Source: Verrucomicrobiia bacterium (GTDB taxonomy: Bacteria > Verrucomicrobiota > Verrucomicrobiia > Limisphaerales > Fontisphaeraceae). Taken from it: DNA of 64,000 nucleotides. Location of the stretch: assembly GCA_026414565.1 (NCBI GenBank), contig JAOAIT010000053.1:124001-188000 (forward strand), in the 5' to 3' direction. Shown piece by piece: positions 19,067 through 26,073 of this stretch; within the stretch, counting starts at the first letter, position 1; each line of letters begins with the position of its first letter. Position numbers and translations under genes: made by a program. Below the pieces are notes generated by a model. It did not search any database, was not told the DNA's origin, and was given only the letters and a program-made list of their open reading frames with translations.

Positions 19067-19948
19067 CTATTCGACGTTCATGGCCTGCTCCCGGAATTTC
19101 TCCAACTCGGTCTTCAGGAGCACTACCTCGCGTGCGATGAGGGCATCGTTGGCCTTGGAGCCGATGGTGTTGATTTCGCGGTTCATCTCCTGCGCCAGGA
19201 AATCCAGCAGCCGGCCCACCGGCTCCGTGGCGCGGCGGGCATCCTCAAATTGCTGGAAATGACTTTCCAGCCGGGCCAGCTCCTCGCTGATGTCTGAGCG
19301 ATCCGCGAATAAGACGATTTCCTTGAGCAACCGTTCATCATCCTCCGGCAGATGGGCCAGGCCGGCAGCTCGCAGGCGCTCGACGAGCTGCTGGCGGTAA
19401 CGCTTTTGCACCAGGGGGGCGCGGCGGCGAATCCGGGCCGCACTGCGGCGCATGAGGGCCACGCGCCGCGCCAAATCTTTCTCCAAGTGAGCGCCTTCAC
19501 GCTGGCGGGTGCGCAGCATGGCCTCCAGCGCCTGACGCAGGGCGGTATGCAACGCCGGCCAGAACGTTTCGGCATCGAGCGCTTCCTCGTCGGATTCCAA
19601 CACGCCAGGCGCCTGCACCACCAGATCGAGCGTTACCGGACTGGTCAGCTTCAGTTCGCGGGCCAATTGTTGCAATTCCTTCAAATAGGCACGCGCGAGC
19701 TCATGATTCAGCCGGGGACACGCTTTGCCGCTGCGGTGGGAGAGGTGCAAGGTGACGCGGACGGTGACCTTGCCGCGGGAGAGGGACTGGGCCACCACAT
19801 CTCGCATTTGCGCCTCCAGCACCTCCAGGTCGCGCGGCAAAACCACCAGCAAATCCAGTTGCTTGCGGTTGACCGAACTGATTTCAACGCTGACTTTGTA
19901 ACCGTCACGGGCACATTCCGCGTGCCCATAACCTGTCATGGACTTCAT
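19067..19948 (-). CDS. yicC: YicC family endoribonuclease-like protein
   Basis: A 293-residue protein of standard family length, starting MKSMTGYGHAE, the hallmark YicC N-terminus, and ending with DISEELARLESHFQQF, RLLDFLAQEMNREINTIGSK and a helical tail. YicC proteins are reported to be stress-linked RNases; the middle part is an Arg-rich helical region. In many bacteria yicC is followed by gmk and rpoZ, but here it is alone, convergent with the TPR gene and divergent from the kinase. Confidence 0.95.
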   Translation of the reverse strand: MKSMTGYGHAECARDGYKVSVEISSVNRKQLDLLVVLPRDLEVLEAQMRDVVAQSLSRGKVTVRVTLHLSHRSGKACPRLNHELARAYLKELQQLARELKLTSPVTLDLVVQAPGVLESDEEALDAETFWPALHTALRQALEAMLRTRQREGAHLEKDLARRVALMRRSAARIRRRAPLVQKRYRQQLVERLRAAGLAHLPEDDERLLKEIVLFADRSDISEELARLESHFQQFEDARRATEPVGRLLDFLAQEMNREINTIGSKANDALIAREVVLLKTELEKFREQAMNVE

Positions 19949-20117
19949 AGAATGCCACTATGGGAAGGCGGCGGCCCTGCCGCAAATCAATTTTACAGCC
20001 AAATAAGCGCGTTGGCCCGGTCCCCACAGAGAAGGAAAACATTTGGTGGTCAGAAAAACGTTTCGCAGCTATTTTCTTTGTAACCCTTCCGCCCAAAGGC
20101 CTCAGAAAGAAGTTAGT

Positions 20118-23100
20118 ATGACAACTGATGCTACCAAGCCAGAGCGTTGCCCTCGCTGCGGGGCGGAAGTACCGGCCGAAGCACCCCAGGGATTGTGTCC
20201 GCGATGTGTCATGGTGGGTGCGGCGGCGCCGACGGACGGGATGGGAAGCCCCACTGGAACGTCGGAAATTCCGTCACTGCAACGCATTGCAGCGGCATTT
20301 CCACACCTTGAAATTGTGGGGTTAATTGGGCGGGGCGGCATGGGATTCGTGTTCAAAGCCCGCCAACCACACCTGGACCGCTGGGTCGCCTTGAAGTTGC
20401 TACCCGACAAGCTGGCCCGCGATCCATACTTTGCGGAGCGTTTCAACCGCGAGGGCCGGGTGCTGGCCAAATTGAATCACCCCAATATCGTTAGCGTATA
20501 CGACTTCGGCAAAACTGAGGAGTTTTATTACCTGCTGATGGAATATGTGGACGGCGTGAACCTTCGCCAGGCCATGCAGACGGGCCGTTTTTCCCCCACC
20601 GAGGCCCTGGCTATCGTGCCCAAAATCTGTGAGGCCCTGCAATATGCACACGAGCAGGGCGTGTTGCATCGGGACATCAAGCCCGAGAACATTCTGCTTG
20701 ACGCCAGGGGCCGGGTCAAAATTGCCGACTTTGGCATTGCCAAGGTGGTCGGCGAGGAACGACCACCATTGACCTTGACCGGCACGGGCGCCACGTTGGG
20801 CACGCCGCACTACATGGCTCCCGAACAATTGGAGTCTCCCAATCAAGTGGATCACCGGGCCGACATTTATTCGCTGGGGGTGGTGTTCTACGAAATGCTG
20901 ACGGGTGAGCTGCCCATTGGGCGTTTTGCCCCGCCCTCCGCCCGCACTCCGGTCAGTTCATCGGTGGATGAAGTTGTTTTTCGCACCCTGGAGAAGGACC
21001 GTGAGAGACGTTTTCAAAGCGCACTGGAAGTTAAAACCAAAGTGGAACTCCTGACTGCCAGCGGCTCAGCATCCGTTGCAGCAAGGCCGCTGCCGGTGCT
21101 GTTGCGGGAAACACGTGGTTACATCAGCACTTTGGCGCATATCCAGAGTTTGGCAGGACGTGTGTGCTCAGCGCATTTGGGGACTGGCCAGTGGAAATTG
21201 TATAGTGACCGCCTTGTTTATGTGGAGGGACCCCAAAGTCTTGCCCTGGCTTTGGACAGTATTCGCTCCATCACGCTGGGCCATTTCCCGGCCTGGGTGA
21301 AACCTGCGGGCAGGGCATTTCTGGCAATTTCCTTTCTGCAAGCGGGGGAGGTTCGCACGCTGTTATTTGCCCCCATTCTTCCCGGCACCGCAACGGTGGA
21401 GGCGGTAAATCGGCATACCGCAGAATGGCAACAGGCATTGAGAGAAGCAATCCATCAGGCCATCGGCCTGCCACTGTCCGAATCCTCCCCGGCCACCTTC
21501 CCTCTGCCTGCCTCACGTCTGGATGGCAAACATCTTTGGTTGTTGGGCTTGCTTGGGATGGTTTCGGCGCTGCCCGTCTTCTTCCAGTCCTGGCTCAAGG
21601 GCCGTCCTCCCGGCGGCTACCTGGAAGACTTGCTGCCCTACCTGCTGGCGCTGGTGCCGGGTGTTTTGTGGGCCAGTTGGTTGTTCTGGTCCAGGCGCAA
21701 GACCAGACGCGCGCTTTTCCCGCCCTCTTCTCCGCCCGCGAACCGTGGCCCAGCCGGGACTCAAGTCCTGGATTCTTCCAAGGTTTCGGTCAAAGCCATC
21801 ATCAGTGCAGCCTTAACGGGCCTGGCCTGGGTGCTGGCGGGAGCTCCCTTGGTGCTGGCCTTTGCCGGAGGAGGACTCGGTTGGGCGGAGCTGCTCCTTT
21901 TTGGTGTCCCGGCCTGTCTGGCAGGACTGGCCGGGTCTATTCTGGGTTGGGTGGCACTTGGCGATATGCGCTACAGCCAGGGCCGGCTGCGTGGCTTGCC
22001 GCTGGCGATCTATGGGGCGTTGGGCAGCCCCCTGTTATTGCTACTGGTACTGGCCATTGGCTTTCCGTTTGTCAATGTGATTGCGGGCCAGCCTTCCCTG
22101 GCTTTGCGGATGCTGGCCTGGCTGCTGCCGGCAGGTGCCTTGACTTTTGTTTTTTGGGCCATTTATGCCACCAGCCGTTGGGCGTCTCATGCGCCGCGCG
22201 AGCGCCGGCGCGGGGTGTTAAAGTGGGTTTGTGGTGCCTTGATCATGATTGGGCTGGTGATACTTGCGCCCGTATTTTTCTATTTGTCGCGCAAAACTTC
22301 GCAGGCGGGGTATGGTTATGCCTCCCTGCTGCAGAGCAACCCGCTGCCGCCGGGGATGGTCAAACTGGCTGCCTTGTCTGACCAGCGCGGCGATGGTTAT
22401 TGGTGGCAGCCCGACGGCTCGCAGGTGGACAAAACGCCGTCTGTGGCAATGAAAGCCGAACCCAACTGGCGAAATTCCCAGCCGGATGAAAGGCGGGTGC
22501 AGATGCTCTTGGAATTGCATGGGGTGCAGACCGGGGACTCCAGCCCTCGCTTGATTTTGCCGGAGGCTCATGGTTGGAGCGGTCAGACGGTGCAAAACCC
22601 ATCGGCCGGTGAAGGCTCCACCACGTTTTACCTCCTGAGTGCAGCCTTCCCGACAGAAAAGAAAACCACCACCATTTACGTGGGCCTGGCCCGTGGCCCG
22701 TGGCGCACTCTGGCTCAGGATGCCATCACGGCCTCTTCTGCTTATGCGGTAGCGCTGGACAAAACGAATTGGAAAATTGCCTTCCACGGGGCAACGGAGG
22801 AGAAGGAGGGCCACACGGTCGTTCAGGCCAGTTATGCATGTCGCGACCGTGATTTCTTCGAAATTCGAATATCAGCCATCTTGGCCAATGGTACCAAGGA
22901 AGCGGGGCTGGTGTTACGTGAGTCTGGCGGGCATCTGCGCGCCACCTTTCCCAAGCGTGCCCTTCGCGACATTCAAAACTTTATTTTTGAAGTGCGGCCG
23001 TACCAATGGACGGCCTTTAAGGAGGTTCATTTGTGGCCCGCGCCTGCTCAACAACATGCCAGTCGCGCCAATCTTGTCGGCTTCGCTGTGGTCAAGGTGC

Positions 23101-24371
23101 CCAAAAGCCAGGTGGCTGTTGTGACGCTGATAAGAGGAACCAACGCAATACCTGAAGTTGGAGGGTTTTTGGTGGCACCGGATGATGAAAATATCTCTGC
23201 CGAGGTGAAACTGGAGCCTGCCACAGATGCCGAGGGACGGGGCGACCCCGCAGAGTTCACCATGAACCTCAGGACTGCCGAGGGGCAGGAAGTGACAGCC
23301 GGCACAACAAGGCTGGAGAACGCACAGCTTTTGGCAATAGGCCCGCCGCCCTTGCGCCTGCCCCTCCCTCAACCGGGGCAGGATGCCGTAAAAGTGCCGT
23401 GGCTGCAACTGCGCGTGGGGGAGAAGGCAGAAACCATCTATATCCAGGTGGCTTATACCCACCGTTTTCGTCATCTGGCAGTCAGTGCTTCCCCCATCGT
23501 TGGCGGAGGTACCAACTGGCAGGAAGCCTTGGAATTGGTCTCGGCCGCCGCTGCGCGGGATGGCGAGACTGCGCTCGTGGTGCGTTTTACGATTACGGAA
23601 GTTGCCGTTGTGGAGGAAGCAAATCAACCATGGTTGCGCATCGATTACGTGGCCAATTTGAACACGAATTGGCTATCCCTCGTCAGGGCTCAGGGTGACG
23701 GATTTGAGACCGAGGTCAGGCGTCTGGCCTTGCGCGAAGGGGTGGCGGGATTGGCCTCGGTGCGCCATGAACGAGCCCTCATTCGTCTGCCGGCCGGATT
23801 ATCGGTTTCCGCCGCAGCCGAGCTGGCGCAAAGTCTCGCCGTGGCACTAGTCGCACAAAACTTGGAAGTACCTCCCGGCAGGGAAATCCCTCTCTTCAGA
23901 GTGCCGGTGGTCGAGGCAGGTATGTTGGAAGTGGCTTTGGGTGCGGCACCAGTCACCCAAGTGCCATCCACCAGTTTAACTTTTACCGGGGTGGCCATGT
24001 GGCAGGAGGGGCGGCACTTTTGCCTGGGCTTTGATTATACCCTGAACAGCGGCAGGGCGCAGGAGGTTTTCCGATTACAAAGTCCCGTTCCGGATGCATG
24101 GGTTACCTCCGCAAGCACAAAATTTGTGCGCCACGAAAGGGCGGACGCTCCTCCCCTGGTAACCTATCGGGCCACCTTGGCCTTGCCGCCGGCGGTGGAT
24201 GAAACTGAAGCCCGCCAGATGCAGCAGACCAACCGCCTTGGCTGGGTGGGACGCACGCTGGAATTGCGTGCCGGCGAGCGTCAAGCATTGTTCTCCTGGG
24301 CCCTGAAGCAGGGAGCGGTTTTGCACTTGACGGTAGAAAGCCGCATGCCCAGCGTTGATCGAAGCCGGTGA
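20118..24371 (+). CDS. Membrane serine/threonine protein kinase with zinc ribbon and large C-terminal domain
   Basis: A 1417-residue protein. Residues 11-30 form a CPRC...CPRC zinc ribbon. The kinase domain runs from about 64 to 330: glycine loop LIGRGGMGFVF (69-79), Lys93, HRDIKPEN (184-191), DFG (204-206), GTPHYMAPE (228-236). All catalytic residues are present. About five or six hydrophobic segments lie between about 470 and 725 (for example LVLAFAGGGLGWAELLLFG and LIMIGLVILAPVFFYL). The remaining about 690 residues are probably extracytoplasmic with no domain I recognise; they could sense a signal. The start at MTTDATKPERCP follows AGAAAGAAG; an upstream in-frame ATG lacks support. Its stop overlaps the ECF sigma gene by GTGA. 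Confidence 0.9.
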   Translation: MTTDATKPERCPRCGAEVPAEAPQGLCPRCVMVGAAAPTDGMGSPTGTSEIPSLQRIAAAFPHLEIVGLIGRGGMGFVFKARQPHLDRWVALKLLPDKLARDPYFAERFNREGRVLAKLNHPNIVSVYDFGKTEEFYYLLMEYVDGVNLRQAMQTGRFSPTEALAIVPKICEALQYAHEQGVLHRDIKPENILLDARGRVKIADFGIAKVVGEERPPLTLTGTGATLGTPHYMAPEQLESPNQVDHRADIYSLGVVFYEMLTGELPIGRFAPPSARTPVSSSVDEVVFRTLEKDRERRFQSALEVKTKVELLTASGSASVAARPLPVLLRETRGYISTLAHIQSLAGRVCSAHLGTGQWKLYSDRLVYVEGPQSLALALDSIRSITLGHFPAWVKPAGRAFLAISFLQAGEVRTLLFAPILPGTATVEAVNRHTAEWQQALREAIHQAIGLPLSESSPATFPLPASRLDGKHLWLLGLLGMVSALPVFFQSWLKGRPPGGYLEDLLPYLLALVPGVLWASWLFWSRRKTRRALFPPSSPPANRGPAGTQVLDSSKVSVKAIISAALTGLAWVLAGAPLVLAFAGGGLGWAELLLFGVPACLAGLAGSILGWVALGDMRYSQGRLRGLPLAIYGALGSPLLLLLVLAIGFPFVNVIAGQPSLALRMLAWLLPAGALTFVFWAIYATSRWASHAPRERRRGVLKWVCGALIMIGLVILAPVFFYLSRKTSQAGYGYASLLQSNPLPPGMVKLAALSDQRGDGYWWQPDGSQVDKTPSVAMKAEPNWRNSQPDERRVQMLLELHGVQTGDSSPRLILPEAHGWSGQTVQNPSAGEGSTTFYLLSAAFPTEKKTTTIYVGLARGPWRTLAQDAITASSAYAVALDKTNWKIAFHGATEEKEGHTVVQASYACRDRDFFEIRISAILANGTKEAGLVLRESGGHLRATFPKRALRDIQNFIFEVRPYQWTAFKEVHLWPAPAQQHASRANLVGFAVVKVPKSQVAVVTLIRGTNAIPEVGGFLVAPDDENISAEVKLEPATDAEGRGDPAEFTMNLRTAEGQEVTAGTTRLENAQLLAIGPPPLRLPLPQPGQDAVKVPWLQLRVGEKAETIYIQVAYTHRFRHLAVSASPIVGGGTNWQEALELVSAAAARDGETALVVRFTITEVAVVEEANQPWLRIDYVANLNTNWLSLVRAQGDGFETEVRRLALREGVAGLASVRHERALIRLPAGLSVSAAAELAQSLAVALVAQNLEVPPGREIPLFRVPVVEAGMLEVALGAAPVTQVPSTSLTFTGVAMWQEGRHFCLGFDYTLNSGRAQEVFRLQSPVPDAWVTSASTKFVRHERADAPPLVTYRATLALPPAVDETEARQMQQTNRLGWVGRTLELRAGERQALFSWALKQGAVLHLTVESRMPSVDRSR

Positions 24372-25120
24372 ACAAGACGCCTTCCTCTCATGGACATGGT
24401 TTCGGCCCAACGCGTTGGACGCTGGTTCTACGCAGTCAGGGGGGTACGCCGGAGGCCCGTGCTGCCTTGAGTGAGTTGTGCGAGGCTTATTATCAACCAG
24501 TACTTCGTTTTTTACAACGGGAGGGTCGCCATGAGGACGCGGCACGTGAACTGGCGCATGATTTTTTTGCGCGGCTGCTGGAACGGGGACAGGTAGGCGG
24601 GGCTCATCCCGCCAAAGGTCGCTTCCGTTCGTATTTATTGGGGGCGTTGAAGCACTACCTGGCAGATCGGCGCGAAAAAGAAGGGCGTTTGAAACGTGGA
24701 GGTGGTGTCATCCTTCAACCACTGGAATCCGAGACCACCCACCCCACTGCTGCCATTGCCAGGGAAGGGGCAGAGGCCACCTCGACCGTGACCGACGCCT
24801 GGTTTGACCGGCAATGGGCCCTGACGGTCATGGCCCGCGCCTTGAAGAATTTGGAGGAGCAAATGGTGTCCGAAGGTCGTGCCGAACATTTCAGGGTGTT
24901 GAAACCCTGGCTGGCTGGCGATGGAGCAGCATTGGACGCGGCTGCTGCTGCGGCTCAACTGGGACTGGGTGAGAGCGCTTTAAAGGTGGCTGTGCACCGA
25001 CTGCGCAAGCGTTTTCGCCATGCCGTGCGGGAGGAAGTGGCGCAAACCCTGCCGGAGGGAGCTGATTTGCAGGCGGAGTTGCGTTACCTGATCGAGGCGC
25101 TGTCGGCGCCATCGCCTTGA
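24368..25120 (+). CDS. ECF-type RNA polymerase sigma factor
   Basis: A 250-residue protein. Region 2 is seen in RWTLVLRS, LCEAYYQPVLRFLQR, LAHDFFARLLER and FRSYLLGALKHYLADRR. A linker of about 60 residues leads to region 4, LGLGESALKVAVHRLRKRFR, the helix-turn-helix that reads the -35 box. This layout matches the ECF sigma factors common in planctomycetes and Verrucomicrobia that sit beside serine/threonine kinases. GTG 24368 lies inside the kinase stop codon (GTGA), so translation is likely coupled and the kinase may control this factor by phosphorylation (inference). It is convergent with the next gene, 16 bases away. Confidence 0.88.
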   Translation: MNKTPSSHGHGFGPTRWTLVLRSQGGTPEARAALSELCEAYYQPVLRFLQREGRHEDAARELAHDFFARLLERGQVGGAHPAKGRFRSYLLGALKHYLADRREKEGRLKRGGGVILQPLESETTHPTAAIAREGAEATSTVTDAWFDRQWALTVMARALKNLEEQMVSEGRAEHFRVLKPWLAGDGAALDAAAAAAQLGLGESALKVAVHRLRKRFRHAVREEVAQTLPEGADLQAELRYLIEALSAPSP

Positions 25121-25136: not shown

Positions 25137-26006
25137 TCAGCGCGCCAGGGCTACCAGATAGCGTTGCAGGCGCATGGCCTCCTCCGATTGCCGCTGCTGC
25201 TGGTAAATCTGGTGCAGGTTGGAACACATGCGCATGAGCATCCGCCGCGGGGTGACCGGGGTCAGGAATTCATCGTACAAGCCATGATGATGCGTGTGCA
25301 GATACTTTACGCAGTCGGCCTTGGTCAGCAGACGCCCCCCGTTGAAGGGATCAATGTAGATTTCCTCGGTGGGTGACTGATAACGGCAAATGAAGTGGCC
25401 GGGCAGGCCGATGCCGGCGACGGGCATTTTAAGGCGCCGCGCAATCAACAAATATACGGTGCACAGGCCGATGGGATTGCCTGTGCGCCGGTCAATCACG
25501 CGGTTGAGATAACTGTTGTCGGGGTGGTAATAATCCTCCTCGTTGCCGTGAAATTGTTCCTGAACAAAGAGGAAGTCGTTCATCACCCCCAGCATTTGCA
25601 CGGAGTTGGAGCAGGGGCGCAGGCGCTGGCGAAGTTCCTGGGCAAAGTAATCCAGCAGCGCCCGATACCCCTCCACCTGAATGTCGGCATACTGGGTGCG
25701 CGCCAGGAGCCAGGCGCCCTCCTCCAGGTCGAAGTCGTCGCCCTGCCGCAGGCAGAAGGCCAGAAATTCATTGTCGGCGTCCTGCCGGGCAAAGTGCAGC
25801 ACGATGCTTTTGGCACGTTGACGCAGCAGAGGATCGGGACTGGCCAGGTGGGGGCGCAGCCAATCCGCCGCTTCGTGGCCATAAGCCAGAAGCTTCTGCC
25901 GCACGGCCTGGTGGACAGCCGGGTCATCATCGCCCAGGAGGCTGATCAGCGCTTCGCGTTGGGCGTCAGACAACCTGGGCAGGACGGTGCCGGACGTTGG
26001 TTTCAT
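25137..26006 (-). CDS. SirB1/transglutaminase-like protein
   Basis: A 289-residue protein. The N-terminal part is HEAT-like (ALISLLGDDDPAVHQAVRQK). The C-terminal part has the SirB1 transglutaminase-like core NPIGLCTVYLLIARRLKMPV, GLPGHFICRY and IYIDPFNGG, with Cys, His and Asp in the order of the papain-like triad, then a TPR-like end. Molecular function is unknown. ATG 26006 is chosen over TTG 26036. It is divergent from purF with a 159-base gap that holds two hairpins. Confidence 0.85.
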   Translation of the reverse strand: MKPTSGTVLPRLSDAQREALISLLGDDDPAVHQAVRQKLLAYGHEAADWLRPHLASPDPLLRQRAKSIVLHFARQDADNEFLAFCLRQGDDFDLEEGAWLLARTQYADIQVEGYRALLDYFAQELRQRLRPCSNSVQMLGVMNDFLFVQEQFHGNEEDYYHPDNSYLNRVIDRRTGNPIGLCTVYLLIARRLKMPVAGIGLPGHFICRYQSPTEEIYIDPFNGGRLLTKADCVKYLHTHHHGLYDEFLTPVTPRRMLMRMCSNLHQIYQQQRQSEEAMRLQRYLVALAR

Positions 26007-26073
26007 GTCAACTAATGCAATTGGACTGCAAAACAATTGATGCTTATTTGGGCAAATTATTCAAATCAAAAGT

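Follow-up and report, generated by a model that had tools for sequence, protein, structure and literature searches.

A conserved pair of Hanks-type kinase and divergent ECF-type sigma factor genes preceded by a promoter-like element in Verrucomicrobiota

Two overlapping genes, one for a Hanks-type Ser/Thr kinase and one for an ECF-type sigma factor, form a genuine signalling unit whose general type is already known, and an autoregulated two-gene kinase-sigma signalling operon is the explanation that we favor, with somewhat better than even confidence. The genes lie in a 64,000-nucleotide stretch of DNA from a Verrucomicrobiia bacterium, hereafter the window (Table 1). The open reading frame translations agree with a first-pass annotation, made from the letters alone, that the kinase gene comes first and is joined to the sigma gene by a GTGA overlap. 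The flanking genes, which encode YicC (19067-19948) and a Transglut_core2 protein (25137-26036), are both on the opposite strand, indicating that the kinase and sigma genes form a unit of their own. An anti-sigma gene was looked for beside the pair and none is adjacent, since the adjoining genes are these two, as the first-pass annotation had it; the pair is without the adjacent anti-sigma gene of an anti-sigma-regulated ECF sigma factor.

Table 1. Coordinates of the features of the kinase-sigma pair in the window
Feature	Position	Strand	Remarks
Kinase ORF, Hanks-type Ser/Thr	20118..24371	+	1417 aa, ATG start, no internal stops
Sigma ORF, ECF-type	24368..25120	+	250 aa, GTG start, no internal stops
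GTGA overlap, kinase TGA stop / sigma GTG start	24368..24371	+	
-35-like element TGTAAC	20079..20084	+	conserved upstream of many kinase/sigma operons
-10-like element CTCAG	20101..20105	+	16 nt past GTAAC, 12 nt before kinase ATG
N-terminal CxxC...CxxC ribbon	20148..20207	+	residues 11-30; visible in sequence
Kinase domain with C-terminal lobe	20298..21077	+	residues 61-320
PH-like domain (predicted)	21078..21473	+	residues 321-452; between kinase domain and membrane helices
Membrane region (predicted)	21534..22295	+	residues 473-726; hydropathy; about seven helices
Domain d1, presumed outer part	22338..23045	+	residues 741-976
Repeat r1	23559..23909	+	residues 1148-1264
Repeat r2	23967..24305	+	residues 1284-1396
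Sigma2.2 motif AARE at DAED place	24539..24550	+	residues 58-61; alignment to solved ECF sigmas
Sigma2-sigma4 linker	24710..24805	+	residues 115-146; 8 Ser/Thr

Sigma homologues occur in 30 of the 39 genomes searched, the window's own included, and a sigma profile at E 1e-20 finds matches in at least 62 of the 387 genomes sampled from the phylum, a lower bound because few candidates per genome were scored. The 28 named assemblies with sigma loci carry 26 Verrucomicrobiota names, one Rubripirellula and one Acidobacteria label. The first set, composed of 28 loci, 60 regions from relatives (best-scoring matches first) and the window, holds 93 distinct sigma genes, and 90 full-length homologues remain after the partial L057, L116, and L119 are dropped. 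A same-strand kinase gene lies directly beside the sigma gene in 75 of the 90 (upstream in 32, downstream in 40, and on both sides in 3), and the other 15 have a kinase on neither side. Because only 7 Pkinase matches exceed the cut-off in the window's own 4.3-Mb genome, the pairing goes beyond chance. For the held-out set, 20 genomes of the profile search contributed a single region each. Its 22 sigma genes share no more than 73% identity with the first set, and 18 of them are paired (14 sigma-first, 3 kinase-first, and 1 with kinases on both sides, leaving 4 with neither). The two-gene unit proposed in the first-pass annotation is thus kept in relatives, and a lack of conservation, which that annotation had named as refuting the idea, is not what the relatives show. 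An adjacent kinase gene, as in ECF43, is also what the window pair has.

Among the 15 unpaired sigma genes, seven (L036, L039, L075, L092, L093, L100, and L110) have a kinase gene 455-1412 bp away, and five (L054, L061, L074, L087, and L091) lie within 3.4 kb of the end of their contig. For L045, L064, and L082, no kinase gene is found on either strand of the fetched region (more than 6 kb on each side), and these kinase-less sigmas retain the conserved residues of the family, which counts against the explanation that we favor. The search for conserved gene order, suggested as a check by the first-pass annotation, gives a divided answer: the pairing is conserved, but kinase first is just one of two orders found, with at least three changes among the 72 sigmas of unambiguous order on a quick maximum-likelihood sigma tree that leaves many forks unresolved. 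The start/stop overlap, which had been taken as translational coupling, recurs as a 4-nt overlap in 20 of the 32 kinase-first pairs of the first set but in 0 of the 4 held-out pairs with an upstream kinase.

Several arrangements differ from the simple pair. The sigmas of L045 (7965-8741) and L064 (7222-8040) are sisters on the sigma tree, two sigma genes in a row precede one kinase gene in L093, and kinase genes flank one sigma gene on both sides in L070, L072, and L104. The window's own genome carries a second, distant sigma (30% identity) with a kinase gene downstream (G000:C9:290369-292618, L079), and one genome, G014, has 25 matches to the sigma.

The first protein is clearly a Hanks-type Ser/Thr kinase, with predicted activity, by its domain score (Pfam Pkinase, residues 66-268, E 1.4e-53, 182.4 bits against a cut-off of 31.7) and its intact catalytic motifs (VALK 90-93, HRD 184-186, DFG 204-206, and APE 234-236). 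The zinc ribbon claimed for its N-terminus is partly borne out: the CxxC...CxxC pattern is plain in the sequence, but the Pfam zinc-ribbon models stay under their cut-offs (E 0.17 and 0.71). The domain that follows the kinase domain is modelled confidently (pLDDT 89.9), and comparison of the model with solved structures gives PH/PTB/FERM-type chains at Z 11-13, the closest being the Sac2 hSac2 domain (Z 13.0), followed by GRK2, Akt, and other PH chains (Z 11-12). By this model, the domain is predicted to have a PH fold of the PH-domain superfamily. Ten further open frames of the locus set, in other sigma-linked kinases, contain it as well. A Pfam search with the kinase pieces outside the kinase domain, the PH-like domain included, finds nothing over the cut-off, and the C-terminal part of about 690 residues remains without a matching Pfam family, just as the first-pass annotation had left it. 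The about six membrane segments of that annotation correspond to real hydropathy peaks, but the placement of basic loops, as we read it, suggests seven helices rather than six, in which case the C-terminal part would be outside.

The C-terminal part is beta-rich. Its domain d1 is common to a few other loci of the set, and r1 and r2 are weakly similar tandem repeats (hhalign E 8.4e-5, probability only 60; HMM E 0.003-0.06); one repeat copy of this type is also found in the kinase of L059. Of 286 genomes searched, the congener alone carries the entire part, two others giving short partial matches; the part thus looks fast-evolving and modular, as expected of a sensor. The structure prediction that the first-pass annotation had suggested for this part was of no help: the model, built on an alignment of six sequences, is poor (mean pLDDT 57) and gives no match in the PDB at E 0.001, and for these reasons the Ig-like chains listed for it are not taken as evidence.

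The window sigma appears to be a divergent ECF type that scores below the curated cut-offs, both against PF07638 (E 5e-4, 20.4 bits; cut-off 21.1) and against TIGR02937 (E 3.1e-6, 26.9 bits; cut-off 42.9), and the profile of its family aligns weakly with solved ECF sigmas (best E 0.0068). Canonical ECF sigmas have DAED in sigma2.2 and ECF43 members lack it (PMC8999054); EcfP, with STTA, is activated by Thr phosphorylation within the sigma2.2 motif (PMC8999054). In EcfK, which has QATE, the third residue of the motif is phospho-Thr51, and Thr106 of the linker is another key phosphosite; EcfK with T51A alone is still functional (PMC13147305). With AARE, the window sigma likewise lacks the full DAED, so that the canonical motif is lost as in ECF43. 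However, Arg60 occupies the third motif place, where EcfK has its phospho-Thr and where a Thr phosphosite would be expected for an ECF43 member, and Arg is found at that place in 38 of the 40 best-scoring sigmas. In the window's clade, no Ser or Thr is found in or beside the sigma2.2 motif, which again counts against the favored explanation. Given the Arg at the phospho-acceptor position and a motif free of nearby Ser/Thr, the published ECF43 sigma2.2 switch would not be available, and it is unlikely to operate the same way here.

The net charge of the four motif residues is 0 in 23 of the 32 kinase-first sigmas, whereas nine retain some negative charge, including five with DAED (-3), and these nine speak against the favored explanation. 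In the 40 sigma-first sigmas, the net motif charge is -2 in 23 and -3 in 9. The linker contains at least one Ser/Thr in 31 of the 32 kinase-first sigmas, but the positions vary, contrary to what the favored explanation would lead one to expect. The linker phosphosite of EcfK is a parallel to the Ser/Thr-rich linker of the window sigma, which is a candidate only. The nearly invariant T15, T18, S88, and T227 were dropped as phosphosites because they are largely kept in the 15 sigmas lacking an adjacent kinase (T15 in 15/15, T227 in 15/15, Ser/Thr at 18 in 15/15 and at 88 in 11/15). Beyond its last sigma4 helix, the sigma also carries a C-terminal tail (residues 220-250, window 25025-25117), with the near-invariant T227 and an E237 that is invariant across the 90 aligned sigmas.

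Upstream of the operon, the window contains GTAAC-N16-CTCAG at 20080-20105. The -35 elements of ECF sigmas commonly carry AAC. Of 90 upstream regions, 20 (16 of 32 kinase-first) carry the pattern GTAAC-N16-N[TC]CAG, whereas 200 shuffles give 0.16 on average and never more than 2. GTAAC-Nk-TCAGG stands at a single spacing in 17 regions, and 13 other spacings give no match; the related operons are not independent samples, and their spacer sequences differ widely. In other clades, GTAAC and the spacer are kept and the -10 element is GTCAG, TTCTGA, or GTAAT, and with these clade variants 41 of the 90 upstream regions are given a class. The -10 classes were set by eye on the first set, and the rules were then fixed before the held-out test. 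On the sigma tree, the classes require 4 changes, compared with at least 12 in 200 shuffles, when a fifth class (CCCA and like, 7 rows) is merged into CTCAG for the count. Under the same rules, 10 of the 22 held-out regions carry the element (shuffle mean 0.43, maximum 3 in 500), and the same regions reversed or reverse-complemented give 0 matches. By these rules 49 of the 90 first-set regions and 12 of the 22 held-out ones lack the element, which weighs against the favored explanation. Together, the recurrence at the same spacing and the -10 variants that follow the sigma tree point to autoregulation: the element resembles an autoregulated ECF promoter, which the window sigma would use. The AGGAA beside the -10 element may alternatively be a ribosome-binding site.

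Genome-wide, the exact GTAAC-N16-CTCAG occurs twice in the window's own genome (once in the reversed control) and twice in the congener (six times in the control). Each genome has one copy before the operon, which is its only intergenic exact copy, and the other inside a long open frame. The exact element is therefore no commoner than in the reversed control, and the case for it rests on place and spacing. A search with TGTAACC-N15-CTCAGGAA, allowing up to 2 mismatches, finds 3 sites in the own genome and 8 in the congener, with 4 and 7 in the reversed control; with counts this close to the control, no regulon beyond the operon can be named. The exact GTAAC-N17-TCAGGAA is matched 26 times across 39 genomes, the window's own among them, compared with 6 times in the reversed control. 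Nine of the 26 sites are just before zinc-ribbon kinase genes (L151, L154, L165, L166, L168, L171, L172, L150, and L169), the sites of L150 and L169 being those of L069 and L063. The wider regions of 4 of the 26 sites, two of them kinase ones, show no common target. L152 was rejected as a regulon candidate because no kinase gene follows its site.

In the mechanism that we propose for an autoregulated two-gene operon, the beta-rich C-terminal part would sense a signal outside the membrane, and the membrane helices and the cytoplasmic PH-like domain would relay it to the N-terminal Ser/Thr kinase. The active kinase would then phosphorylate the sigma made from the overlapping gene. Unmodified, this sigma would be a weak binder of core RNA polymerase, as proposed from the loss of net negative charge in sigma2.2 (AARE for DAED). 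Its phosphosite would be other than the sigma2.2 Thr of ECF43, with the Ser/Thr-rich sigma2-sigma4 linker as the first candidate, and the active sigma would transcribe its own operon from GTAAC-N16-CTCAG.

By analogy with characterized systems, it is likely that the kinase phosphorylates its paired sigma. Kinase-activated ECF sigmas without an anti-sigma are already established for ECF43 and predicted for five more groups (PMC8999054, PMC13147305), so the idea put forward in the first-pass annotation, that phosphorylation may replace the anti-sigma, is not new in kind. Like PknS-EcfK of Xanthomonas citri and PknT-EcfP of Vibrio parahaemolyticus, both of ECF43, the window has a membrane Hanks kinase beside an ECF sigma and no anti-sigma. 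Unlike PknS-EcfK and PknT-EcfP, it has Arg rather than Thr at the phospho-acceptor position and belongs to another phylum, and its kinase combines the PH-like domain with the beta-rich C-terminal part, whereas PknS is described with a periplasmic TPR-rich domain. The predicted kinase-regulated groups ECF59, ECF61, ECF62, ECF217, and ECF283 also have a sigma gene near a Ser/Thr kinase gene and no usual anti-sigma, and by our reading four of their five named representatives carry planctomycete names (PMC8999054); these groups, compared here by description, are reported to retain DAED or a comparably acidic motif, in contrast to AARE in the window. SigH-PknB of Mycobacterium tuberculosis, in which a kinase acts on an ECF sigma at phosphosites in the sigma2-sigma4 linker, is comparable, but SigH has the anti-sigma RshA, itself phosphorylated (PMC13147305), while the window pair is without an adjacent one. 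The tested kinase-driven ECF sigmas in these sources are few: EcfP, EcfK, and one from Hyphomonas (PMC8999054, PMC13147305). Our search of the open-access literature found no study addressing either kinase-sigma pairs in Verrucomicrobiota or the GTAAC-N16-CTCAG element. What the window adds is AARE with its Arg, a recurring promoter-like element, and a kinase with a predicted PH-like domain and an unmatched C-terminal part.

It is also conceivable, though rather unlikely in our judgment, that the kinase protein holds the sigma at the membrane, with the ribbon, kinase, or PH-like domain serving as the anti-sigma surface, and that signal-driven autophosphorylation frees the sigma, which is then not a substrate. 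Strict pairing and overlap suit a stoichiometric partner of this kind, and the sigma offers no conserved residue that could be named as its phosphosite, but such holding would be superfluous if the sigma is inactive alone, as the uncharged motif suggests, and the measured cases, EcfP and EcfK, are ones of direct phosphorylation (PMC8999054, PMC13147305). Sigma and kinase-domain distances also co-vary over 64 pairs (r 0.56, a value reached by none of 5000 permutations), as a holding partner would suggest, but this correlation includes shared ancestry; it is r 0.89 for 29 kinase-first pairs and r 0.27 for 35 sigma-first pairs. Within G014 the picture is mixed: r is 0.44 for all 15 pairs (3/5000) and 0.61 for 6 kinase-first pairs (71/5000), but co-divergence is absent among the 9 sigma-first pairs (r -0.06), a result against the favored explanation. 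Owing to the confounding by shared ancestry and the mixed result in G014, co-divergence was set aside as evidence for interaction.

Somewhat less probable still is that the sigma acts upstream of the kinase, being controlled by its amount only and mainly driving its own operon, while the kinase has other substrates. The operon element as the only intergenic exact copy in the own genome and the congener, and the lack of a nameable further regulon, fit this arrangement, but it leaves unexplained both the linkage through order changes and the loss of charge in sigma2.2. That the linkage is merely inherited or incidental, with neither protein acting on the other, is very improbable: close relatives do share ancestry and some sigmas have no nearby kinase, but pairing in 75/90 and 18/22 through at least three order changes, in held-out sigmas this diverged and with so few kinases per genome, argues against it.

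Returning to the autoregulated operon, we raise a broader possibility, tentatively and at well under even confidence, that these pairs are self-contained, insulated bistable circuits, in which a signal would act on the kinase, the kinase on the sigma, and the sigma would make more of both, with a clade-tuned -10 element used chiefly or only at the own operon and with an activation site other than the sigma2.2 phospho-Thr, whose place is now held by a conserved Arg. If this is true, many such switches could run side by side in one cell, given the number of sigma matches in G014. The family is large and belongs to a phylum other than those of the tested cases, and its pairing, promoter-like element, and sigma clades are all visible in the sequence. 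The window pair supplies a promoter for reporter assays and a clear mutational test at sigma2.2, and the clade-specific -10 elements might become orthogonal promoters.
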